From: Candidatus Accumulibacter regalis
GTDB taxonomy: Bacteria; Pseudomonadota; Gammaproteobacteria; Burkholderiales; Rhodocyclaceae
Length of the DNA: 39,311 nucleotides
Reading direction: 5' to 3'
Assembly (NCBI GenBank): GCA_000585075.1
Contig: JEMY01000006.1
Coordinates: 93,339-132,649, forward strand
Below, piece by piece: positions 27,605 to 38,979 of this stretch (position 1 is the first letter of the stretch; every line of letters starts with the position of its first letter). Both the position numbers and the translations under genes were made by a program. The notes below the pieces were generated by a model. That model made no database searches, was not told the origin of the DNA, and saw only the letters and a program-made list of their open reading frames with translations.

Positions 27605-27895
27605 TTGACGATCGCCGTCTTGACGACATCAGCGGCCGCCACGCGGCGCGAGCGTCGACCGGCCAGACGATCCGGGCAAGCACCGGGTAGCCCCGGCCGG
27701 CATGATCCCGACCCGCGAAACGCGCCAGCAAGAAGAAACCACCATGATCTCCCCGACATCCGGCACCGACGGTCGACAAGACCGGCGCGCCCGCCCTTGG
27801 ACCCGAGCAAAGGCGCGTTCCTGGCGCGCGTTCGCCGCGTGCCGCCGGCGCTCGCCAGGCAAACTCCCAGACAACGACGACGGCCAAGAGATCGA
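27605..27895 (+). other. Region without a confident gene upstream of the spermidine-synthase-like gene
   Basis: These 291 bases hold no recognised protein. A plus-strand frame with an ATG at 27744 (55 codons, stop at 27911) overlaps the next gene by 16 bases. Its product is very Arg-rich and low in complexity (RRARPWTRAKARSWRAFAACRRR), which looks like GC-rich noncoding DNA, though a weak purine run (AGAAGAAACC) precedes the ATG. The region must contain the promoter of the downstream gene, but none could be fixed. Confidence 0.3.
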
Positions 27896-28651
27896 ATGGC
27901 GCATAACCTGATCGACGTCAGCGAAAGAGCCGGCGTCCGCTACCTCCACTTCTCGTCGGACTGGGTGCAGGGGGCGATGCGCATCCAGCGTCCGAACGCG
28001 CTCGAGTTGCCCTACACGCGCGAGATGATGGCCGGACTGCTCCTCCGCGAGCCGCCATGGCCGCGCGAGGCATTGCTGATCGGGCTGGGCCCCGGATCGC
28101 TGGCCAAATTCATCTACCATCAGCTGCCGGCAACCAAGATCACCGTCGTTGAAATCGATCCGCAGGTCGAAGTCGTCGCCCGGCTGCACTTCGGACTCCC
28201 CGACGATCCCCTGCGCCTGCGCGTGCTGATCGGTGACGGCGCGGCGCACATGCTTGCCGGCGACAGCCGCTACGACTACATCCTGGTCGACGGCTTTGAC
28301 AAGAAGGCCCGCGCCGGCGTACTCGACACGCTCCCTTTCTACCAGGCCTGTCGCTCGCGCCTGAGCGATAGCGGGCTACTGGCCGTCAATCTGCTCGGCC
28401 GCGAACGCGGCTTCCAGGCAAGCAGCCAGCGCATCAGCGACGCATTTGACGGTCGCGCGCTCGTCTTTCCGTCCTGCGACAGCGGCAATACTATCGCCTT
28501 TGCGGCAGCCGGTGACCCGGTCGACAGCAGCTTCGACGAACTGATCCGCCGTGCCGATCAGTGCCGGGCAGCCAGCGGACTGAATCTCCTGCCCACCATC
28601 GCCCGCTTGCAAGTCGCGCGCCGCTACCAGGGCGATCGCTTGACGATCTGA
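27896..28651 (+). CDS. Spermidine-synthase-like protein (SAM-methyltransferase fold)
   Basis: A 251-residue cytoplasmic protein. Motif I LLIGLGPGSLAKFIY (about residues 59-73), the acidic strand end VVEIDPQV, and YDYILVDGFDKKA show a class I Rossmann fold of the spermidine/spermine synthase type. The first segment VRYLHFSSDWVQGAMRI resembles the short beta-hairpin domain of SpeE. The canonical SpeE motif GGGDGG is replaced by GLGPGS, and the SpeE catalytic region is not clearly conserved, so true aminopropyl transfer is doubtful. ATG at 27896 directly precedes the conserved part. The gene lies upstream of the cyanophycin cluster on the same strand, 113 bases away. A link through arginine or polyamine nitrogen is possible but unproven. 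Confidence 0.7.
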   Translation: MAHNLIDVSERAGVRYLHFSSDWVQGAMRIQRPNALELPYTREMMAGLLLREPPWPREALLIGLGPGSLAKFIYHQLPATKITVVEIDPQVEVVARLHFGLPDDPLRLRVLIGDGAAHMLAGDSRYDYILVDGFDKKARAGVLDTLPFYQACRSRLSDSGLLAVNLLGRERGFQASSQRISDAFDGRALVFPSCDSGNTIAFAAAGDPVDSSFDELIRRADQCRAASGLNLLPTIARLQVARRYQGDRLTI

Positions 28652-28710: not shown

Positions 28711-28764
28711 TTGCCGCCTGCAACGAAAACACCTCCGGCAGCCTTGCTTGAAAAACCCTCCTCG

Positions 28765-31089
28765 ATGACCGCAGCCAACCACGCATCCACCGCCCAGAGC
28801 GCCGCCCTCGCCAAGGTTTCCGCACCGCCGCTGCCCGCCGCATGGACAGAACGCGTGCAACCCCAATTGGCCGCTGACGAGGAGGTACTGGCCTGGCTGG
28901 AGATCGACCTCGACGCAAGCCTGCGCTTTTCTGCCGGCATCGTAGTCGTCAGCAACGCCCGCCTGATGGCCATGGGGTCTGGCGACGAGAGTGTGCACAG
29001 CTGGCCGTACCAGCCAGGCCTCACCCTGACGCGCAGCGACCACGCCGGGGTCGGCACGCTCGAACTGTGTGCCACCGATGAGCGCCTGGCGCACTGGCGC
29101 TACACGCTCGGCACGGACGTCGCCGCCGGACGGCTGATCGACCACTTCACGCGGCAGTTGAATTTCCACCTCACTGGCAGGCTGCCAGCACCGGCAGCAC
29201 CAGGCGTGTGCCCAAGCTGCGAAACGCCACTCCTCGCCGGCGACGAGCAGTGTCCGGTATGCAGCAAGGAAATTCACCAACCGCCTTCGACCTGGACCCT
29301 GCTCCGCCTTGGCCGCTTCGCGAGACCCTACCGCGGGCAGCTTCTCGCCGGGTTCACGCTCTCGCTGCTGAGCACCGCGGCCACCCTGGTGCCCCCCTAC
29401 CTGACCATGCCGCTGATGGACAAGGTCCTGATCCCCTACCAGAACGGTCAGGCGATCGATCCGGCACTGGTCGCGCTCTATCTCTCCGGCCTGCTCGGCG
29501 CTGCCCTGGTCGCCTGGATCCTCGGCTGGGCACGCACCTACATCCTGGCGCTGGTCTCCGAGCGCATCGGAGCCGACCTGCGCACCGCCACCTACGAACA
29601 CCTGTTGACGCTTTCGCAGGAGTACTTCGGCGGCAAGCGAACCGGCGACCTGATGGCCCGCATCGGCTCGGAGACCGATCGCATCAACATCTTTCTGTCG
29701 TTGCACCTGCTCGATTTCGCCACCGACGTACTGATGATCGTGATGACCACCGCCATCCTCATGTCGATCGACGTCAGACTGGCACTGGTGACCCTCCTGC
29801 CGCTGCCGATCATCGCCTGGCTGATCCACGTCGTGCGCGAGAGACTGCGCACCGGCTTCGAGCGCGTGGACCGCGTGTGGGCGGAAGTGACCAACGTCCT
29901 CGCCGACACCATTCCCGGTATTCGCGTCGTCAAGGCCTTCGCCCAGGAAGCGCGCGAGACCAGCCGTTTCCGCACCGCCAACGCGCACAATCTCGAAGTG
30001 AACGACCGGGTCAACAAGGTTTGGTCGCTGTTTTCGCCAAGCGTCACCCTGCTCACCGAAATAGGCCTGCTCATCGTCTGGGCTTTCGGCATCTGGCAGA
30101 TTGCCAGCGACCACATCACGGTCGGCGTGCTGACCGCATTTCTTGCCTACATCAGCCGCTTCTACCTGCGCCTGGACTCGATGAGCCGCATCGTTTCGGT
30201 CACCCAGAAGGCCGCCGCGGGCGCCAAGCGCATCTTCGATATCCTCGACCACGTGTCCAGCGTTCCCGAGCCGTCAACGCCGGTGCACCTGGCGAAAGTC
30301 ACCGGGCGTATCGAACTGCGCGGCGTCGGCTTCCGCTACGGAACGCGCAGCGTCACCCGCGACATCAGCATCGACATTGCCCCCGGCGAGATGGTCGGCC
30401 TGGTTGGCCACAGCGGCTCCGGAAAGAGCACGCTGGTCAACCTGATCTGCCGCTTCTATGACGTCAGCGAGGGCGCCATCCTGATCGATGGCGTGGACAT
30501 CCGCTCGCTGCCGGTGGCCGAGTACCGCCAGCACATCGGCCTGGTGCTGCAGGAGCCGTTCCTCTTTTTCGGCACCATTGCCGAAAACATCGCCTACGGA
30601 AAGCCCGCGGCGACACGCGCCGAAATCGTCGCCGCCGCCCGCGCCGCGCACGCGCACGAATTCATTCTGCGCCTGCCGCACGGCTACGATTCGCTGGTCG
30701 GCGAACGCGGCCAGGCACTCTCGGGCGGCGAACGACAGCGCATCTCGATCGCCCGCGCGCTGCTCATCGACCCGCCCATCCTGATTCTCGACGAAGCGAC
30801 CTCGTCGGTCGATACGACCACCGAGAAGGAGATCCAGAAAGCCCTCGACAATCTGGTTCGCGGGCGGACCACGATTGCCATCGCGCACCGCCTCTCCACC
30901 CTGCGCGACGCCGATCGCCTGGTCGTTCTCGACCGTGGCAGCGTCGTCGAGGTCGGCAGCCATGACCAGTTGATGGCTTGCGAGGGCCACTACTACCGCC
31001 TCTACCTGGCGCAGGCGCGCAACGTCGACAATGAAGACAGCTTGAGCAGCGTCGAACTCGCACGCGCCGCCGACGGAGAACGCCTGTGA
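28765..31089 (+). CDS. Cyanophycin-metabolism-associated ABC transporter (fused permease-ATPase with zinc ribbon)
   Basis: A 774-residue half-transporter with an unusual N-terminus. Residues about 30-130 form a soluble beta-rich domain (EEVLAWLEIDLDASLRFSAG, VVVSNARLMAM) that resembles a bacterial PH-like domain. A zinc ribbon follows with Cys149, Cys152, Cys163 and Cys166 (CPSCETPLLAGDEQCPVC). About residues 170-480 are the six-helix type I exporter domain. The ATPase has Walker A GHSGSGKST (Lys554), signature LSGGERQRISIARAL, Walker B ILILDEATSSVD and the H-loop IAHRLST. Such proteins are annotated beside cyanophycin genes in proteobacteria; the cargo is unknown. TTG at 28711 is in frame, but ATG 28765 is preferred. 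The stop overlaps the DUF1854 start (GTGA), so the two are coupled. It probably works as a homodimer. Confidence 0.85.
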   Translation: MTAANHASTAQSAALAKVSAPPLPAAWTERVQPQLAADEEVLAWLEIDLDASLRFSAGIVVVSNARLMAMGSGDESVHSWPYQPGLTLTRSDHAGVGTLELCATDERLAHWRYTLGTDVAAGRLIDHFTRQLNFHLTGRLPAPAAPGVCPSCETPLLAGDEQCPVCSKEIHQPPSTWTLLRLGRFARPYRGQLLAGFTLSLLSTAATLVPPYLTMPLMDKVLIPYQNGQAIDPALVALYLSGLLGAALVAWILGWARTYILALVSERIGADLRTATYEHLLTLSQEYFGGKRTGDLMARIGSETDRINIFLSLHLLDFATDVLMIVMTTAILMSIDVRLALVTLLPLPIIAWLIHVVRERLRTGFERVDRVWAEVTNVLADTIPGIRVVKAFAQEARETSRFRTANAHNLEVNDRVNKVWSLFSPSVTLLTEIGLLIVWAFGIWQIASDHITVGVLTAFLAYISRFYLRLDSMSRIVSVTQKAAAGAKRIFDILDHVSSVPEPSTPVHLAKVTGRIELRGVGFRYGTRSVTRDISIDIAPGEMVGLVGHSGSGKSTLVNLICRFYDVSEGAILIDGVDIRSLPVAEYRQHIGLVLQEPFLFFGTIAENIAYGKPAATRAEIVAAARAAHAHEFILRLPHGYDSLVGERGQALSGGERQRISIARALLIDPPILILDEATSSVDTTTEKEIQKALDNLVRGRTTIAIAHRLSTLRDADRLVVLDRGSVVEVGSHDQLMACEGHYYRLYLAQARNVDNEDSLSSVELARAADGERL

Positions 31090-31559
31090 TCACCGCGCCC
31101 GACTATCGCTTGCAACGCAACGCCTTCGGACGACTCGAGCTGACCACTGCCGGCGGCGAGACGCACACCGGAGTGGTGCCTGTGCGCGCCTTCCCGATCA
31201 GCGCTCCTGACGACGGCATCGGCCTGGTCGACCCGCATGGCCGTGAACTGGCGTGGATCGAGCAGCTCAGCGAGCTGCCGGACGAAATGCGTGCGCTGGT
31301 CGAAAGCGAGCTGAGCGGTCGTGAATTCATCCCCGAGATCAGGCGCCTGATCAGCGTCTCGAGTTTTGCCACGCCAAGTACCTGGCAGGTGGAGACCGAT
31401 CGCGGCACGACCACTTTCGTCCTCAAGGGCGAGGAAGACATTCGCCGCCTCGACTCGCCGGCCCTGCTGATCGCCGACAGCCACGGCATTCACTTCCTGA
31501 TCCGCGACCGCTACGCGCTCGATGCACCGAGCCGGCGATTTCTGGACCGCTTCCTGTGA
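31086..31559 (+). CDS. DUF1854 protein associated with cyanophycin metabolism
   Basis: A 157-residue soluble protein without signal peptide or membrane segment. The central pattern (PVRAFPISAPDDGIGLVDPHGRELAWI, ELSGREFIPEI, FVLKGEEDIRRL and the C-terminal DRYALDAPSRRFLDRFL) is that of DUF1854, a family found next to cyanophycin synthetase genes. Its biochemical function is unknown. The start is GTG at 31086, overlapping the transporter stop by four bases, so it is made together with the transporter and may be its cytoplasmic partner (inference). A 160-base spacer with a hairpin follows before the first synthetase gene. Confidence 0.8.
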   Translation: MITAPDYRLQRNAFGRLELTTAGGETHTGVVPVRAFPISAPDDGIGLVDPHGRELAWIEQLSELPDEMRALVESELSGREFIPEIRRLISVSSFATPSTWQVETDRGTTTFVLKGEEDIRRLDSPALLIADSHGIHFLIRDRYALDAPSRRFLDRFL

Positions 31560-31640
31560 ACCTGGCAACGGCAACTGCCGCATCCGACCCTGAGCCCGGT
31601 CAGCCGATTCGCAGCTGCCGCGTTATAGCCACGATAAGCT

Positions 31641-31658
31641 CGCTCGGACCTCCGAGCG
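31641..31658 (+). promoter_or_regulatory. Perfect inverted repeat in the spacer before the shortened synthetase
   Basis: CGCTCGGA and TCCGAGCG form a perfect dyad around a central CC in the 160-base gap (31560-31719). As RNA it would fold with six paired bases and a six-base loop; as DNA it could be an operator half-site pair. No T-run follows, so it is probably not an intrinsic terminator. Confidence 0.4.
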
Positions 31659-31719
31659 GATCACCCGCAGCCCCTCTTGCGCCAAGGCGCGCCCACCCGT
31701 CCGTGCCTGGAATGACCCC

Positions 31720-33891
31720 ATGAAAAACAAAGACATCAAGTTCCTCGAGATCCGCTACCTGCGCGGCCCGAACATCTGGACCTACCGCCCGGTCATCGAG
31801 GCGGTCGTCGATATCGGCGAACTTGAGGACTTCCCGTCGAACACCATCCCCGGCTTCTACGAACGCCTCACCGGGCTGCTTCCGTCGCTGATCGAGCATC
31901 GCTGCAGCTACGGTGAGCGCGGAGGCTTCCTGCGCCGCGTCCAGGAAGGCACCTGGCCGGCGCACATCCTCGAACACGTCACCCTCGAATTGCAGAACCT
32001 CGCCGGCATGCCCGGCGGTTTCGGCAAAGCCCGAGAAACCTCCACCCGTGGCGTGTACAAGGTCGTCGTTCGCGCCTGGCACGACGAGGTGACCCGCGCC
32101 TGCCTGTATTCCGGCCGCGAGCTGCTGCTGGCCGCCATTCACGAGACGCCTTTCGACGTTGCCGCCGCGGTCGCGCACTTGACCGACATGGCCGAGCGCA
32201 AACTGCTCGGACCGAGCACCAGTTGCATCGTCGACGCGGCAACGGCCAAAGACCGGCGCATACCGGCGATTCGCCTGCTCGCCACCGGCAATCTCGTGCA
32301 GCTTGGCTACGGCTCGCGCAGCCGACGTATCTGGACCGCAGAAACCGACCGCACCAGCGCCATTGCCGAGGGCATCTCGCGCGACAAGGACCTGACCAAG
32401 AGCCTGCTCTCGTCGTGCGGCGTACCGGTCCCCGAAGGACGCCTGGTCGACAGCGCCAACGACGCCTGGGAAGCCGCCGAAGACATTGGCTATCCGGTGG
32501 TCGTCAAACCCTCCGACGGCAACCATGCCCGTGGCGTATTCACCAACCTGATGAGCCCCGCAGAAGTCGAGGCGGCGTATGCTGCCGCCGTCACGGAAGG
32601 TAGCGGTGTCATCGTCGAACGCTATGTATGCGGCTCGGAGCACCGCCTGCTGGTCATCGGCGGCAAGCTGGTCGCCGCCGCCCGCGGCGAGACGGCCAAA
32701 GTCACGGGTGACGGCGAGTCGACCATCGACCAGCTGATCGACAGCCAGATCAACTCCGACCCCCGCCGCGGCGCCGAAGAGGAGTATCCGCTGGACATAC
32801 TCTCGCTCAGCGATAACCCGGTCGCCCGACTCGAAGTCACGCGCCAGGGTTTCAGCGGTGATTCGATCCCGCCCGCCGGTCGCGAAGTACTGATCGTGCG
32901 CAGTGGCAACCACACCGACGACATCACCGACAGCGTACACCCCGACACCGCTGCCACCGCGTCACTCGCCGCGCGCATCGTCGGCCTCGACATCGCCGGC
33001 GTAGACCTGGTCTGCGAAGACATTTCCCGGCCGCTCGACGAGCAGCGCGGCGCGATCGTCGAGGTTAACGCCGGCCCCGGGCTGCTCATGCACCTGAAAC
33101 CGGAAAGCGGCGAGCCGCGCCCGGTCGGTCGCGCCATCGTCGAGCAGTTATTCCCCAACGGTGACGACGGCCGCATCCCGGTCATCGGCGTCAGCGGCAG
33201 CTTTGGCAAGACCACCGTCGCCAACCTCGTCGCGCGCTTCCTGACGCTCTCCGGCAAGCATACCGGGCTGGCCTGCAGCGACGGCCTGTTCCTCGATCGG
33301 CGTTGCATCGCCAAGGGCGACAACGCCACCTGGGGAGCAGCCAACCGCATCCTGATGAACCGGGCCGTAGACGCGGCGGTGCTGGAAAATGGCAGCGACA
33401 CCGTTCTCGACGAAGGCCTGGCTTACGATCGCTGCCTGATCGGCGTGATCACCAACGTAGACCCCGCCCGCCATGTTGGCCGCTACCACATCGAAACACC
33501 CGAGCAGGTGTTCACTGTCCTGCGTACCCAGGTGGACCTGGTTCTGCCCGGCGGCGCCGCGGTGCTCAATGCCGGCCATCCCATGCTCGTCGAAATGGCC
33601 GCCCTGTGCGACGGCGAGGTCATTTTCTTTGCCACAGACCCCGAGCAGCCGGCGCTCGTCAACCACCGGGCGCTGGGCAAGCGCGCGGTGTTCGTTCGCG
33701 GGGGACAGGTGGTCCTCGCCAGTGGCAACGACGAGACGCCCATCGTCAGCCTGCAGGGAATACCGCTGACCGATGGTGGCAGCGTCGACTTCGAGATCGA
33801 GAACGTTCTCGCCGCCACCGCCGCGGCGTGGGCGCTGGGCATAGGACCGGAATTGATCCGCACCGGGCTGGAGACCTTCACCGTCGCCTGA
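31720..33891 (+). CDS. Shortened cyanophycin synthetase (CphA2-like / CphA' paralogue)
   Basis: A 723-residue paralogue of the full-length synthetase at 34043. It shares the N-terminal domain (LRGPNIWTYRPVIEAVVDIG) and the ATP-grasp domain (about residues 210-480, with YPVVVKPSDGN and IVEVNAGPGL). The Mur-ligase-like half begins with GSFGKTTV (Lys497) instead of GTNGKTTT, has LENGSDTVLDEGL where the paralogue has LETARGGVLREGL, and stops at about the end of the central domain. The C-terminal Mur domain, with the DYGHNPDA motif of its neighbour, is missing. This resembles cyanobacterial CphA2, which joins beta-Asp-Arg dipeptides using only the ATP-grasp site; whether this protein does so is inference. 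Its stop is clean and the rest lacks frameshifts, so it does not look like recent decay. The Shine-Dalgarno site is weak. Confidence 0.85.
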   Translation: MKNKDIKFLEIRYLRGPNIWTYRPVIEAVVDIGELEDFPSNTIPGFYERLTGLLPSLIEHRCSYGERGGFLRRVQEGTWPAHILEHVTLELQNLAGMPGGFGKARETSTRGVYKVVVRAWHDEVTRACLYSGRELLLAAIHETPFDVAAAVAHLTDMAERKLLGPSTSCIVDAATAKDRRIPAIRLLATGNLVQLGYGSRSRRIWTAETDRTSAIAEGISRDKDLTKSLLSSCGVPVPEGRLVDSANDAWEAAEDIGYPVVVKPSDGNHARGVFTNLMSPAEVEAAYAAAVTEGSGVIVERYVCGSEHRLLVIGGKLVAAARGETAKVTGDGESTIDQLIDSQINSDPRRGAEEEYPLDILSLSDNPVARLEVTRQGFSGDSIPPAGREVLIVRSGNHTDDITDSVHPDTAATASLAARIVGLDIAGVDLVCEDISRPLDEQRGAIVEVNAGPGLLMHLKPESGEPRPVGRAIVEQLFPNGDDGRIPVIGVSGSFGKTTVANLVARFLTLSGKHTGLACSDGLFLDRRCIAKGDNATWGAANRILMNRAVDAAVLENGSDTVLDEGLAYDRCLIGVITNVDPARHVGRYHIETPEQVFTVLRTQVDLVLPGGAAVLNAGHPMLVEMAALCDGEVIFFATDPEQPALVNHRALGKRAVFVRGGQVVLASGNDETPIVSLQGIPLTDGGSVDFEIENVLAATAAAWALGIGPELIRTGLETFTVA

Positions 33892-33926
33892 CGATGATCG
33901 ACTGACCAGCCACCAGGAGTGAAGAA

Positions 33927-33953
33927 ATGAGCCACAGACCGGCCGCGCAATAG
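33927..33953 (+). CDS. Possible eight-codon micro-ORF between the two synthetase genes
   Basis: An ATG at 33927 is preceded by AGGAG nine to ten bases upstream and reads MSHRPAAQ before a TAG at 33951-33953. The surrounding 151-base gap holds no other gene. The ribosome site is better than that of either synthetase, so the short frame may be translated as a leader peptide controlling cphA, or be the remnant of a removed gene start. It may also be chance. Confidence 0.25.
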   Translation: MSHRPAAQ

Positions 33954-34042
33954 CTTGATCGGCGCGCGCCGAACCGGAAACACGGCAGCCACGCGGACCT
34001 AACTGGCCGTCGTCCGCAGCGAAGCAGAAAGGGAAACTGTTC

Positions 34043-36625
34043 ATGGAAGTATCGCGTATCCGCGCTCTGCGCGGCCCCAACCTCTGGAGCCGGCACACGG
34101 CGATCGAGGCGATTGTCTGTTGCGCCGAAGACGAGCGCAGTATCGACGACCTGCCCGGCTTCGAGGATCGTCTGCGCGCGCGCTTTCCGGAACTGGCCAT
34201 GCTGCGCCCGGCGGGTCATGATGAAGCGGTATCGATGGCCCAGGCGCTGGAGTTCGCCGCCCTCGGCCTGCAGGCGCAGGCGGGCTGCCCGGTCACCTTC
34301 AGCCGCACGGCCAGGACGCTGGAAGCCGGCACCTATCAGGTGATCGTCGAATACAGCGAAGAGGTCGTAGGCCGCCTGGCTTTCGAACTTGCCCAGGACC
34401 TCTGCCATACCGCGGTCGACGATGCGCCTTTCGACCTCGACGACGCGCTCAGCCGCTTGCGCGAACTCGACGAGGACGTCCGCCTCGGCCCGAGTACCGG
34501 AGCCATCGTCTATGCGGCGATGGCGCGCAACATCCCTTATCGCCGGCTGACGGAAGGGAGCATGGTCCAGTTCGGCTGGGGCAGTCGCCAGAGACGCATC
34601 CAGGCCGCCGAAACCGATCGCACCAGCGCCGTTGCCGAAGCCATCGCGCAGGACAAGGAACTGAGCAAGATCCTGCTGCACGCGGCCGGCGTCCCGGTTC
34701 CCGCCGGGCGACCGGTATTGAGCGCCGAAGACGCCTGGGCAGCAGCCTGCGAGATCGACGCCCCGGTGGTCGTCAAACCTCAGGATGGTAACCAGGGCAA
34801 GGGGGTCGCCGTCAATCTGGTCAGCCGCGAGCAGATCGAGGCGGCCTACGCAATCGCTTTCCAGGTCAGCGACGAAGTCCTCGTCGAACGTTACATCCCG
34901 GGCCACGACTACCGCCTCCTGGTGGTCGGCGACAAGTTGATCGCCGCCGCCCGCCGCGACCCGCCGCTGGTCGTCGGCGACGGCGTGCACGATATCCGCG
35001 AGCTCGTCGAGCGGGTCAACAACGACCCGCGGCGTGGCGAAGGTCACGCCACCTCCCTGACCCGGATTCGCCTCGACGAAGTCGCCCTGGCACGCCTGGC
35101 GAGCGGCGGGCTGACTCCGGAGTCGGTGCCACCCAGAGGTTCGCGCGTCGTCCTGCGCAATAACGCCAATCTATCGACCGGCGGTACGGCGACGGACGTC
35201 ACCGACGACGTGCATCCCGAGTTTGCCGCGCAGGCGGTTGCCGCGGCACGGACCATCGGCCTCGACATCGCCGGCGTCGACGTCGTCTGTGACAGCGTCC
35301 TGCGGCCGCTCGAGGAACAGGGTGGCGGCATCGTCGAGCTCAACGCCGCGCCAGGGCTGCGCATGCACCTGCAACCGTCGTTCGGCAAGGGGCGACCGGT
35401 GGGCGAAGCGATCATCGGCAACATGTTCGCCGACGGCGACGAAGCACGTATCCCGCTGATTGCGGTGTCGGGAACCAACGGCAAGACGACGACCGTGCGC
35501 CTGATCGCCCACATTCTTGCCGCCCAGGAGCTGCGCGTCGGCATGACCACCACCGACGGCGTCTATGTCGAGGGGCGACGCATCGACACCGGCGACTGCA
35601 GCGGTCCGAAAAGCGCCAGAAACGTCCTCTTCCACCCCGATGTCGACGCTGCAGTTCTGGAGACCGCTCGCGGCGGCGTGCTGCGCGAGGGGCTCGGCTT
35701 CGACCGCTGCGATGTTGCCGTGGTCACCAACATCGGTCTCGGCGACCACCTTGGACTCTCCTACATCAGTACGGTGGAGGATCTGGCGGTGGTCAAGCGG
35801 GTCATCGTTCAGAACGTCAGGCCCGAGACCGGCGTCGCCGTACTCAACGCCGCCGACCCGGTGGTTTCGCGGATGGCCGACGCCTGCCCCGGCAGCGTCA
35901 TCTTCTTCGCTATCGACCGCAATCATCCGCTGATGGCTCTGCACCGCGCACAAAGAAAGCGCGTCGTCTACCGCGACGGCGCTTCGATCGTCGCCTCGGG
36001 AGGCGGCGTCGAACACCGCATCGCGCTGGCCAACATTCCGGTCACCCAGCATGGCGCCATCGGCTTCCAGGTCGAAAACGCGATGGCCGCCATTGCCGCC
36101 GCCTGGGCTATGGCAGTCCCCTGGGAAACGATACACGGCGCTCTGGCCAGTTTCGTCAACGACGCCCAGACGGCGCCCGGCCGCTTCAACGTCTTCAGCT
36201 ATCGCGGCGCCACCCTGGTCGCCGACTACGGCCACAACCCGGACGCCATCCAGGCCCTGGTCGAGGCCATCGACAACCTGCCGGCTCCCCCCGACAGTCG
36301 CCGCTCCGTCGTCATCAGCGGCGCTGGCGACCGGCGTGATGAAGACATCCGCGGCCAGACCGAGATTCTCGGCGGCGCCTTCGATCGCGTCGTTCTCTAC
36401 CAGGATCAGTGCCAGCGCGGACGCGCCGATGGCGAAGTGCTGGCCCTGCTGCAGCAGGGCTTGCTCAACGCCACGCGCGCGTCCGAAGTCCAGGAAGTTC
36501 ATGGCGAGTTTCTGGCGATCGATACCGCCCTTGCCCAATTGCAGCCAGGCGACCTGTGCCTGATCCTGATCGATCAGATAGAGGAGGCGCTCGAACACAT
36601 CGGCAAACGGCTGGCCGAGGGCTGA
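34043..36625 (+). CDS. cphA: Cyanophycin synthetase
   Basis: An 860-residue cytoplasmic enzyme, full family length, that makes multi-L-arginyl-poly-L-aspartate from Asp, Arg and ATP without a ribosome. Order: N-terminal domain (LRGPNLWSRHTAIEAIV), ATP-grasp domain at about 205-465 (APVVVKPQDGNQGKGVAVNL, GHDYRLLVVG, GIVELNAAPGLRMHL), which adds Asp to the backbone, then a Mur-ligase-like domain with P-loop GTNGKTTT (Lys481), GDCSGPKSA, LETARGGVLREGL, TNIGLGDHLG, and its C-terminal part with PGRFNVF and DYGHNPDA, which adds Arg to the side chain. All key motifs are intact, in contrast to the shortened paralogue upstream. AAGGGA lies about nine bases before the ATG. It is the last gene of the plus-strand cluster; only 39 bases separate it from the convergent FapA gene, with no visible terminator. 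Confidence 0.95.
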   Translation: MEVSRIRALRGPNLWSRHTAIEAIVCCAEDERSIDDLPGFEDRLRARFPELAMLRPAGHDEAVSMAQALEFAALGLQAQAGCPVTFSRTARTLEAGTYQVIVEYSEEVVGRLAFELAQDLCHTAVDDAPFDLDDALSRLRELDEDVRLGPSTGAIVYAAMARNIPYRRLTEGSMVQFGWGSRQRRIQAAETDRTSAVAEAIAQDKELSKILLHAAGVPVPAGRPVLSAEDAWAAACEIDAPVVVKPQDGNQGKGVAVNLVSREQIEAAYAIAFQVSDEVLVERYIPGHDYRLLVVGDKLIAAARRDPPLVVGDGVHDIRELVERVNNDPRRGEGHATSLTRIRLDEVALARLASGGLTPESVPPRGSRVVLRNNANLSTGGTATDVTDDVHPEFAAQAVAAARTIGLDIAGVDVVCDSVLRPLEEQGGGIVELNAAPGLRMHLQPSFGKGRPVGEAIIGNMFADGDEARIPLIAVSGTNGKTTTVRLIAHILAAQELRVGMTTTDGVYVEGRRIDTGDCSGPKSARNVLFHPDVDAAVLETARGGVLREGLGFDRCDVAVVTNIGLGDHLGLSYISTVEDLAVVKRVIVQNVRPETGVAVLNAADPVVSRMADACPGSVIFFAIDRNHPLMALHRAQRKRVVYRDGASIVASGGGVEHRIALANIPVTQHGAIGFQVENAMAAIAAAWAMAVPWETIHGALASFVNDAQTAPGRFNVFSYRGATLVADYGHNPDAIQALVEAIDNLPAPPDSRRSVVISGAGDRRDEDIRGQTEILGGAFDRVVLYQDQCQRGRADGEVLALLQQGLLNATRASEVQEVHGEFLAIDTALAQLQPGDLCLILIDQIEEALEHIGKRLAEG

Positions 36626-36664: not shown

Positions 36665-38626
36665 TCAGGCTGGCGCTTGCGGCGCCCGGTAGGTCCAGGA
36701 GAAATGGCCAGACGAGGCGAAGAACAATTTGTTGGTCGCCGCGTCCGTCGCCCGTAGCCGGACCTTCAGTTCCTTGCGCGGAAGGGCGCCCAGCGGCGTA
36801 TCGGCCTGCCTGACCAGCAAGGTACTTACCCGCGTCTCGCCTTCGACGCGGTCAATCGTGCACGCCAGCTCGCCACACGCCTGCTCTGCAGCGGCCTGGC
36901 CTTCGTCGATTTCCACCGCCATGGCGGCGGACTCGGCCACCAGCTCGTTGACCGCGCCAGACAGGAGCGAAAGCGTCTTCAAGACCGGAGCGACGACCGC
37001 CGAGAGGCGGCGCCAACCGACCTCCTGCTCGGGACTCAGGCTCACTTCGCCGCGTCGCAGCTTGCCCGCCAGGCGCAGGTACGCGGTGACATCCTTGTCA
37101 CCGCGCAAGGCCTCGACCCTGGCGCGGTGGCCGGCGATCGCCTCTTCGAGTTCGGCACGCTTTTCCCGCAAAGCAACAATGCCGGCGTCCTCGGTCGAGG
37201 CGTCCGGCAGCAGGACCAGAAACACGTTGCCAACCTCCCGGTGTGCGCGGGCGAGGCGCACCTGGATATTCCTGGCTGCCGCAGCGCAGGCTTCTGCCTG
37301 CTCAAGCGACAGGACCTGGGCAACGATATCGCATAGCGTCGCCCGGGCAATGACGACCTGGCGAGCGATGATCACGCAGTTGTCCGCCCGCTTCAAGGTC
37401 ACGCAGCCGTGCGGCGCGATCAGCGTCGCTCCGGAGGCGACACCTTCGACGACGATGTCGCCGTCGTCATTGCTGGCGCTGCCGCCAACCAGATTCTGTT
37501 GCAAGCGCACGGTACCGCCGGTGGACACGATGTTGCCAAAGACATCGGCGAATGCGGTGATGCTGCGACAGGTGACGACACGCTTCTCCTGGATTTCACC
37601 GTGCTGTTCGTACACTTCGCCGGTCAACATCAGGTCCCCGGTGGTACGTGCGCTGACCCCCTCGTGACTGACGATCTTGTCGGTCACCGAGAACTGGTGG
37701 CTGCGCGTATCGATGGTGAGGAAACCACAGACCGAGGCGAGCAGGTATTCGCCGTCCTTTTCCCGACTCAGCTGAGTCCCGGCACCGGCCATGCGCTGCA
37801 GGTCGAAATCCTTGGGCAAGGGCGCGGGCAGCGCCTCGCCGGTGACGTCCCGCCCGTCGACGCCGGGAGTACGCGGCGTCTTCTTCACCAGACGCAGCCC
37901 GGCGGCGACCTGCGGATAACGCGTCTCGAACTGGCGCAGATCGACCCGGTCACCGAACAGGCGACGCGGTGCGTTGTTGCGGCGCAGGCCAGGCGCCTGC
38001 TCGGTAATCGTGGCGTCCTTGCCGGCCACGAAGGGCTTGCCGCGAGCCACGACACGCCGCTCTGGCCTGTCGAGCTGGATGCCTTCCTGGACCGCCGCAA
38101 CGTCGATTCCGAAGCGCACCCCCTTGCCCCACGCGCTGGCGACGAACTCGTCGAAATCCAGCCAGACACGCACCTCCTGCGGCGAGCCGGCGAGCATCCC
38201 CTGCGGGCTGTTGCCGCTGCCTTCAGTCGACGCCTCATCGGGCGCCGCGTCGCGATAGATCGGCTCGAACAGATAGGCCGCCTCGCCGCGCTGAATCCGC
38301 AGCTCCTTGTAGAGCGACTGGCGCTGCGGCTGAAAGGTGGCGATATCCAGCGCCAGGAACACCTCGTCGGGGGCAGCCTTGTCGCGACTCGCCGCATCGT
38401 CGTACAGGAGCGACTGGAATTGCGCATAATCCAGGCCCCGGAAATAGAGCCCCAAGGCAAAGGTGCGATCGACGAAGTCGACGAAATCAACCGGCGAATC
38501 GAGCCGCGACAAGGTCACAAACAGGCCGTCCGCCCGCTTGACGATATAGCGCGACAACGCGATCTGTCCATCCTCGAGGTCGGCAAGATTGCCGATGGCA
38601 CTTTTCGGTTGGTCTGGCATGGTCAT
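36665..38626 (-). CDS. FapA family (DUF342) protein
   Basis: A 653-residue cytoplasmic protein with no membrane segments. The N-terminal 230 residues are specific to this group. The centre has the DUF342 beta-helix pattern: TPGVDGRDVTGEALPA, FDLQRMAGAGTQLSREKDGEYLLAS, then repeats such as SARTTGDLMLTGEV, ITAFADVFGNIVSTGGTV and GDIVVEGVASGATLIAPHGCV. A helical segment at about 470-560 follows (ALREKRAELEEAIAGHRARVEAL). FapA-like proteins are often labelled flagellar assembly protein A, but their role is poorly known and no flagellar gene is near. The ATG at 38626 fits; the frame stays open to 39166, but that part is low-complexity and overlaps a divergent lipoprotein gene. Another ATG lies two codons inside. 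Confidence 0.8.
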   Translation of the reverse strand: MTMPDQPKSAIGNLADLEDGQIALSRYIVKRADGLFVTLSRLDSPVDFVDFVDRTFALGLYFRGLDYAQFQSLLYDDAASRDKAAPDEVFLALDIATFQPQRQSLYKELRIQRGEAAYLFEPIYRDAAPDEASTEGSGNSPQGMLAGSPQEVRVWLDFDEFVASAWGKGVRFGIDVAAVQEGIQLDRPERRVVARGKPFVAGKDATITEQAPGLRRNNAPRRLFGDRVDLRQFETRYPQVAAGLRLVKKTPRTPGVDGRDVTGEALPAPLPKDFDLQRMAGAGTQLSREKDGEYLLASVCGFLTIDTRSHQFSVTDKIVSHEGVSARTTGDLMLTGEVYEQHGEIQEKRVVTCRSITAFADVFGNIVSTGGTVRLQQNLVGGSASNDDGDIVVEGVASGATLIAPHGCVTLKRADNCVIIARQVVIARATLCDIVAQVLSLEQAEACAAAARNIQVRLARAHREVGNVFLVLLPDASTEDAGIVALREKRAELEEAIAGHRARVEALRGDKDVTAYLRLAGKLRRGEVSLSPEQEVGWRRLSAVVAPVLKTLSLLSGAVNELVAESAAMAVEIDEGQAAAEQACGELACTIDRVEGETRVSTLLVRQADTPLGALPRKELKVRLRATDAATNKLFFASSGHFSWTYRAPQAPA

Positions 38627-38979
38627 CGTGCATTCAGCTCTAGGTCGGTTGCTGGGTGCAGAGGCTTTCCCCGTTTGCGCTGGCGACGCGACGCGGCGTG
38701 GCGAGCGCCCTGCGATTCGCCCACCACGGCCGGCTTGGCAATTCCTGTGCCGGCCCGCCGCGCAGCGGGATCGCGCTTGCTCGACGATCAATTGAGCGCC
38801 GAGCCCGGCGCGACTGCTTGCAGCGTACCAGAAACCGACGTTCGCCTGCCAACCTGCCCAGTTCGAGAGCGGCGCATTCAGCGCGCAGGTCAGCGCGCAA
38901 GCGGCGACTGCGTTACATTCACTATCGCCCACGCTCATCGCTTCCGCGTGCAGCGCAAAACCCCTTGCCGAGTTCAGCC
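38627..38979. other. Divergent intergenic region between FapA-like and lipoprotein genes
   Basis: These 353 bases hold no gene that could be supported. They should contain the promoters of two divergent genes. A near-exact direct repeat, TCAGCGCGCAGG / TCAGCGCGCAAG, occurs at about 38878-38901. The sequence TTACATTCACTATCG around 38913-38927 is an A/T-richer patch that could hold a promoter for the lipoprotein gene, but no consensus pair is clear. Confidence 0.35.

Follow-up and report, generated by a model that had tools for sequence, protein, structure and literature searches.

Here we report that the two cyanophycin synthetases encoded in a 39,311-nucleotide stretch of the Candidatus Accumulibacter regalis genome (contig JEMY01000006.1, positions 93,339 to 132,649; hereafter the window) are not equivalent, and that, as judged by their sequences, they very probably divide the active sites of a synthetase between them in a complementary manner. 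The first, which we call CphA', keeps the polymer-cutting site, while the second, CphA, keeps the residues of the two synthetic domains. Both lie beside an ATP-binding cassette (ABC) transporter gene and a DUF1854 gene. This linkage is already annotated; beyond it, the two synthetases are non-equivalent and their division is uniform across 123 loci. In a reading of the open reading frames (ORFs) of the window, the four genes are collinear, intact and on the same strand:

28711..31089 (TTG start; ATG alternative at 28765), plus strand: ABC transporter of the exporter type, with transmembrane domain and ATPase in one chain (NF052233, PF00664, PF00005)
31086..31559, plus strand: DUF1854 protein, 157 aa (NF052234, PF08909)
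31720..33891, plus strand: CphA', the first synthetase, 723 aa (NF010623); N site intact, aspartate pocket and C lobe of the M domain lost
34043..36625, plus strand: CphA, the second synthetase, 860 aa (NF010623); N site lost, G and M residues kept

A preliminary description of this stretch had proposed a four-gene, same-strand cyanophycin locus in which the transporter and DUF1854 genes overlap as GTGA. Both points are borne out: all four frames are intact with family scores far above chance, and the stop of the transporter gene and the start of the DUF1854 gene share positions 31086-31089. Its count of two cyanophycin synthetases stands in that both proteins exceed the NF010623 cut-off of 877 bits (CphA' with 1063 bits, CphA with 1236), but the two are unlike, as CphA' has no Mur_ligase_C match in a domain search and scores 758 bits against the TIGR02068 equivalog, under the cut-off of 850. 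The view that the locus is devoted to synthesis has to be given up: because CphA' keeps the site that cuts the polymer and has lost those that add aspartate and arginine, the locus is not purely synthetic.

In CphA1, the N domain is a zinc hydrolase that generates primers by cleaving nascent polymer, and its Cx19HxxEH motif is surrounded by H57, F67, R70 and E87 (PMC9262961); the G domain adds aspartate and the M domain arginine (PMC9427784). We read the states of these residues from a MAFFT alignment of CphA' and CphA to SuCphA1, in a collection of 144 loci made up of 80 named loci, 59 from a sample of the window's order (mostly one per genus), 4 at class level and the window. Both synthetases were long enough in 125 of the 144, and removal of two identical loci left 123, the window included. 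Most of the 19 dropped loci end at or near a contig end, and in one (L213) CphA lies in two frames. L130 and L257 have no CphA in their stretches; the genome of L257 (G608) has one on another contig.

All eight N-site residues (H57, C59, F67, R70, H79, E82, H83 and E87) are present in CphA' at 123/123 loci and in CphA at 0/123. CphA has the G-site residues K220, K261, R309, R323, N394, S396, D431, E450, G456 and R458, and the M-site residues K499, T500, E558, D585 and H586 with the lid residues R731 and H748, at all 123 loci; its exceptions are E215, which is never Glu, T522, which is Ser in 32/123, and H267, which is Gln in 122/123. The residues lining or holding the substrate aspartate (R323, S396 and R458) are retained by CphA' in 0/123 loci, R323 being replaced by Gly and R458 by Leu in 120 each and S396 by a gap in all 123. 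The ATP site of CphA' is mostly kept (K220, K261 and D431 each in 122 of 123, H267 in 118, R309 in 123 and E450 in 121). Its M domain is degenerate, with D585 in 33/123, H586 in 54/123 and the lid missing from 103/123; the window's own CphA' lacks D585 and the C lobe. Identity in the N core is 0.74 for CphA' versus 0.58 for CphA, and in the M domain 0.51 versus 0.70. A full N site together with H267 is seen in 13 of 14 single CphA1s; L029, the remaining one, is divergent and has Lys267. In two genomes (G091 and G213) the G site of CphA' is broken and the N site still whole, which argues that the N site is the function retained in this protein. That CphA' is a pseudogene was considered and rejected, given long open frames of both synthetases in 125/144 loci and an invariant N site. 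No description of complementary sites in such a pair was found in the open papers searched.

Some of our observations weigh against this reading. CphA' has a full-length M lid in 20/123 loci, and truncation is therefore not needed for its role. Another point is the Gln at position 267 in all but one CphA: this position, part of the G-domain P-loop, is His in structures 7lgn and 7lgm, H267A impairs the cyanobacterial enzymes (PMC9427784), and the G domain of CphA is possibly weak or altered. A dead G domain is argued against by Gln267 in the otherwise complete enzyme of genome G798, described below. We also considered an obligate split, in which CphA' would add aspartate by means of H267 and CphA would add arginine, and rejected it: R323, S396 and R458 occur in CphA at 123/123 loci and in CphA' at none, and H267Q is found in G798 as well. 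The sole CphA of the 123 with His267 belongs to L102 (G213), and its partner CphA' carries H267L and E450A; His267 seems to have been kept or regained in the one protein where the other lost it.

Complementary loss after one duplication is the simplest history suggested by these sequences. A tree of the N and G region (73 rows) and another of residues 1-720 (52 rows) both set CphA', CphA and the single CphA1s apart, each group by a well-supported branch (with support of 100/100, 100/100 and 100/99 in the 73-row tree). A single duplication follows from the separation of the three groups when the root is assumed among the single CphA1s; both trees are unrooted, which tells against it. In a genome outside the window's class (G798, locus L266), an ABC-DUF1854 pair lies divergent from a lone CphA whose N, G (with Gln267) and M residues are all complete; this protein may represent the undivided form, or else an early-diverging member of the CphA' or the CphA line. 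Two further difficulties lie here: this CphA branches at a three-way fork with CphA' and CphA from which no branching order emerges, and its gene runs off the contig in a genome that is 8% contaminated, so that a second copy is possible.

We propose that, after duplication, CphA' kept the N-domain zinc hydrolase, an endo-cyanophycinase, and lost aspartate and arginine addition, and that CphA lost the hydrolase and kept aspartate addition in its G domain and arginine addition in its M domain. The two would cooperate, in trans or as a mixed oligomer, with CphA elongating the chain and CphA' cutting nascent polymer into short primers; CphA' would possibly also supply slow polymer turnover in place of the missing cyanophycinase. 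The ABC-DUF1854 pair would most likely move a cyanophycin-derived product across the inner membrane. We consider it reasonably likely that a split synthetase with a trans-acting primer-maker and a linked ABC-DUF1854 module works as stated here; its catalysis, the CphA'-CphA partnership and the transport step with its direction are what we infer from the proteins, while the order of the genes, the states of the residues, trees compatible with a single duplication and the counts of co-occurrence are what we observe. In vitro, a CphA1 that depends on primer no longer needs one when either the N domain by itself or a SuCphA1 with inactive G and M sites is supplied in trans, and SuCphA1 cleaves segments preferentially to (beta-Asp-Arg)4 (PMC9262961). 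By analogy, CphA' looks like a natural version of this trans-acting helper. It has been suggested by the same authors that a CphA1 without the N site may take remnants of earlier polymer as primer (PMC9262961). The pair described here, in genomes that mostly have no strong cphB, has retained a cutter of its own. On the other side of the balance stands the statement of a review (PMC11362209) that cyanophycin was not observed in wild-type Ralstonia eutropha, despite its two cphA homologues; this weakly favours a product that does not build up as granules, or a locus silent under those conditions.

Because the ATP site of CphA' is kept and its aspartate pocket uniformly changed, the protein may in addition act as a ligase on a substrate that is not free aspartate. 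Taken further, CphA' would be a CphA2-like ligase joining beta-Asp-Arg dipeptides or short oligomers, with the N site as a helper. The retention of the ATP site beside the replaced R323 and R458 and the gap at S396 is consistent with this, and the uniformity of the pocket change suggests a new specificity and not decay. We nevertheless think such a ligase quite improbable as the main role of CphA', which matches the solved CphA1 with 525 bits versus 185 for 8fxh and 180 for 7ta5, both of which we take to be CphA2 entries. In G091 and G213, moreover, it is the G site that has broken and the N site that remains, and the N motif of CphA' is absent from CphA2 (PMC9262961).

The linkage of these genes was measured in 359 genomes evenly drawn from the window's order, with CphA called at E<=1e-100 against NF010623; counts ignore kinship, and as two candidates per genome were scored, third copies could escape. 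NF052234 was found in 121/359 genomes and CphA in 135/359. CphA is present in 121/121 NF052234 genomes, NF052234 in 121/135 CphA genomes, and every DUF1854 protein of the sample exceeds the NF052234 cut-off. Among 274 genomes of the class sample, PF08909 identified DUF1854 in 8 and CphA occurred in 14, with both in 5. Three of the 8 DUF1854 genomes thus have no CphA, which is a point against tying the module to cyanophycin, as is an ABC-DUF1854 pair from a Propionivibrio sp. metagenome-assembled genome (L130) with no CphA within its 18.5-kb stretch. The strictness with which the pair follows cphA, a question raised by the preliminary description, is accordingly complete in the order sample (121/121) and fails in the class. 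The CphA-free DUF1854 relatives score 66-115 bits against PF08909, the others 150-179. In two of the CphA-free genomes (L098 and L100) a homologous ABC gene, its product likewise carrying the zinc ribbon, lies just ahead of DUF1854, and in the third no such ABC gene lies within the 20 kb fetched. Since DUF1854 genes occur without CphA at class level, twice beside an ABC homologue, the module is broader than cyanophycin: the order-level DUF1854 family is tied to cphA, and the wider family is not. A PF08909 match over the cut-off in a control genome, that of Sulfolobus acidocaldarius, indicates that DUF1854 reaches the archaea. A short DUF1854 ORF in L099 (9944-10276; G043, no CphA), with no ABC partner in 20 kb and a start resembling that of another L100 gene, looks like a decayed module.

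The commonest arrangement in the 80 named loci is <CphA <CphA' ABC> DUF1854> (39/80), followed by ABC> DUF1854> CphA'> CphA> (24/80). The ABC and DUF1854 genes stand alone in 7/80; in 6 of the 7, no more than ~0.7 kb separates the pair from the end of the stretch, the seventh being L130. In all 138 loci with exactly one of each, the two genes are on the same strand, and in 81/138 the last four bases of the ABC gene are ATGA, GTGA or TTGA, which would allow a four-base overlap.

The preliminary description had noted that no cyanophycinase gene is present in the window. This is correct, and holds for the whole genome (G000, which includes the window), where we found no TIGR02069 match at E<=1e-15 and no S51 peptidase (PF03575) match at E<=0.001. 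The genome-wide search for cphB and isoaspartyl dipeptidase genes, which it had suggested, was run with profiles and likewise returned no S51, Asparaginase_2 (IaaA) or IadA match. One AstE/AspA-type match lies over its family cut-off with 35 bits; a 150-aa portion of it brings no NCBIfam model over the cut-off, and the protein may be a cyanophycin dipeptide hydrolase of that superfamily.

These absences are what one would expect if cyanophycin were stored inside the cell, CphA' were mainly a catabolic endo-cyanophycinase, and ABC-DUF1854 handled the resulting oligomers or amino acids. The distribution of cphB points the same way. A strong cphB (TIGR02069 above 230 bits) occurs in 4/121 DUF1854-positive CphA genomes (G328, G540, G569 and G625) versus 9/14 DUF1854-negative ones (Fisher p 4e-8), and any TIGR02069 match (E<=1e-15) in 13/121 of the former (p 2e-5 for any match); these tests ignore ancestry, and 7 of the 9 cphB genomes belong to one genus. 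Beta-proteobacteria are reported to be the largest cphA1 group, with 903 of 1,614 genomes, and to have a recognisable cyanophycinase in 2.8% of these, a figure called unanticipated (PMC10206079). We still regard a mainly catabolic CphA' as unlikely, for the homologous N site is slow in vitro and yields mainly tetramers, not dipeptides (PMC9262961). In addition, both loci read among the four genomes with DUF1854 and strong cphB (G540 and G625) keep the N site of CphA', and CphA' is thus not simply a cyanophycinase substitute; these two also count against the turnover role that we propose for it.

Five DUF1854-negative CphA genomes are without a strong cphB (G393, G584, G558, G289 and G407). G393 and G584, both NF052234-negative, have CphA and CphA' together with an ABC gene extending as far as the stretch or contig does; in G558 a short contig carries a CphA from which the N site is missing. 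A second CphA-like protein of ~560-720 aa lies near the single CphA1 in nine loci (L103, L105, L106, L107, L110 and L267-L270), eight of them in cphB-bearing genomes. In L267-L270 its Mur-ligase residues KTTEDHRH are intact, and its N and G sites are not recognisable.

The two membrane-module proteins of the window are members of families already named for this association: the transporter scores 1415 bits against NF052233, 'cyanophycin metabolism-associated ABC transporter' (cut-off 880), and the DUF1854 protein 235 bits against NF052234, 'cyanophycin metabolism-associated DUF1854 family protein' (cut-off 150). These names give an association and no function. As the preliminary description said, then, the co-occurrence of these families is known from annotation, and the cluster is also in print (PMC10687191); because the NCBIfam models already name it, the ABC-DUF1854-cphA link is not new. 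In the transporter, Walker A, signature and Walker B are all intact. Its N terminus is predicted to have a PH-like fold (predicted local distance difference test score, pLDDT, 84), for which Foldseek gave a probability of 1.00 to several PH domains, with a best E of 4e-3 and none at or below 0.001. A zinc ribbon is next; its CxxC...CxxC pattern is found in the window's protein and in 129/139 homologous ABC ORFs, and of the 10 without it 8 are apparently full-length and 2 are short and near a contig edge. The cysteines are invariant in a set of 54 ABC sequences partly by construction, since all but the window's were chosen by the cysteine pattern. The DUF1854 model is beta-rich (pLDDT 86, predicted template-modelling score 0.57), and a fold search of the PDB gave no match at E<=0.001, the best being 5.5e-3, with TM-scores <=0.25 among the 50 matches listed. 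The closest named relative of this protein, with 89% identity, is from Candidatus Accumulibacter phosphatis. The word DUF1854 appeared in no open paper searched, nor alongside cyanophycin, and searching named sequences with a DUF1854 alignment extended to the CphA-free members gained nothing useful.

ABC and DUF1854 form a linked module that is probably an exporter. The strict linkage accords with export of a product derived from cyanophycin, and from the sequences we hold that the module exports such a product only as a tentative proposal; it may work in the opposite direction or have a purely structural role. A somewhat unlikely alternative is a general membrane or efflux module, for instance a polyamine, arginine or lipid exporter, that shares regulation with cphA. 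Homologous pairs in the CphA-free L098 and L100 are consistent with this, as is the best named ABC match of the window's transporter outside its own family, MsbA (471 bits), which exports lipid A. Neither the 121/121 linkage with CphA in the order sample nor the scores of the DUF1854 proteins would be expected from it, the order-level proteins all lying over the NF052234 cut-off and the CphA-free relatives scoring lower against PF08909. An extension of the export proposal, rather improbable in our view, would have CphA build the polymer, CphA' cut it to beta-Asp-Arg oligomers, and the PH-domain transporter with DUF1854 export these to the periplasm or outside, with cyanophycin not, or not only, an intracellular store. 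If this were true, no cyanophycinase and no isoaspartyl dipeptidase would be needed, and wild-type Ralstonia eutropha, reported to have shown no cyanophycin with its two cphA homologues (PMC11362209), would fit.

Around this unit we saw little else that is shared. In a crude survey of the longest ORFs within 6 kb, every further neighbour family was confined to 4/60 loci or fewer, and a larger gene cluster was rejected on this count; such a survey could miss families where stretches are short or where GC-rich DNA yields wrong frames. Upstream of the transporter gene lies a spermidine-synthase-like gene (27773-28651, plus strand; 220 bits, below the NCBIfam equivalog cut-off of 304). Homologues stand beside the unit in just 9/80 named loci, mostly of Accumulibacter relatives, and 8 of the 24 loci with the window's gene order have one upstream; given the 9/80, we place this gene outside the conserved unit. 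Downstream, a gene for a FapA_N-domain protein (36665-38641, minus strand) is convergent to CphA. Promoter- and terminator-like matches at the locus are no more frequent than in shuffled sequences (1 versus 0.8 and 6 versus 5.8), so we draw no inference of an operon.

A split synthetase with a trans-acting cutter would be a testable answer to why two cphA genes are kept and where primers come from when there is no cyanophycinase, and bears on whether either gene, expressed by itself, fails because the other is absent. DUF1854 and its transporter would also gain a defined partner. The proposal is relevant to how wastewater bacteria such as Accumulibacter store nitrogen, and may partly account for the ability of many such bacteria to do without the known cyanophycin-degrading enzyme.

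Pairs of cphA genes without cyanophycinase have been described before, as neighbouring cphA1 and cphA2 in Sideroxydans-like Gallionellaceae (PMC5178258) and as two cphA copies in a Herminiimonas (PMC5670224). Also close to the locus described here is the 'Group 1' cphA cluster of several activated-sludge taxa, which likewise has two cphA genes and an ABC transporter and no cphB; flanking insertion sequence elements are reported there, the word DUF is absent from the main text, and the parts of the paper that we read hold no active-site comparison of the copies (PMC10687191). With CphA1 (SuCphA1, PDB 7lg5; NF010623/TIGR02068) both proteins share the order of N, G and M domains. CphA2 has no complete arginine-adding domain and keeps its ATP-grasp site, and CphA' resembles it in both respects. 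CphA2 is, however, cyanobacterial and without the N motif (PMC9262961), whereas CphA' has this motif and is much closer to CphA1. In CphA1 all sites stand on one chain, or the N site is lacking and the enzyme is primer-dependent; here, in contrast, the residues of all three sites are shared out between two proteins, with the N site on CphA' and the synthetic sites, bar H267 and E215, on CphA.

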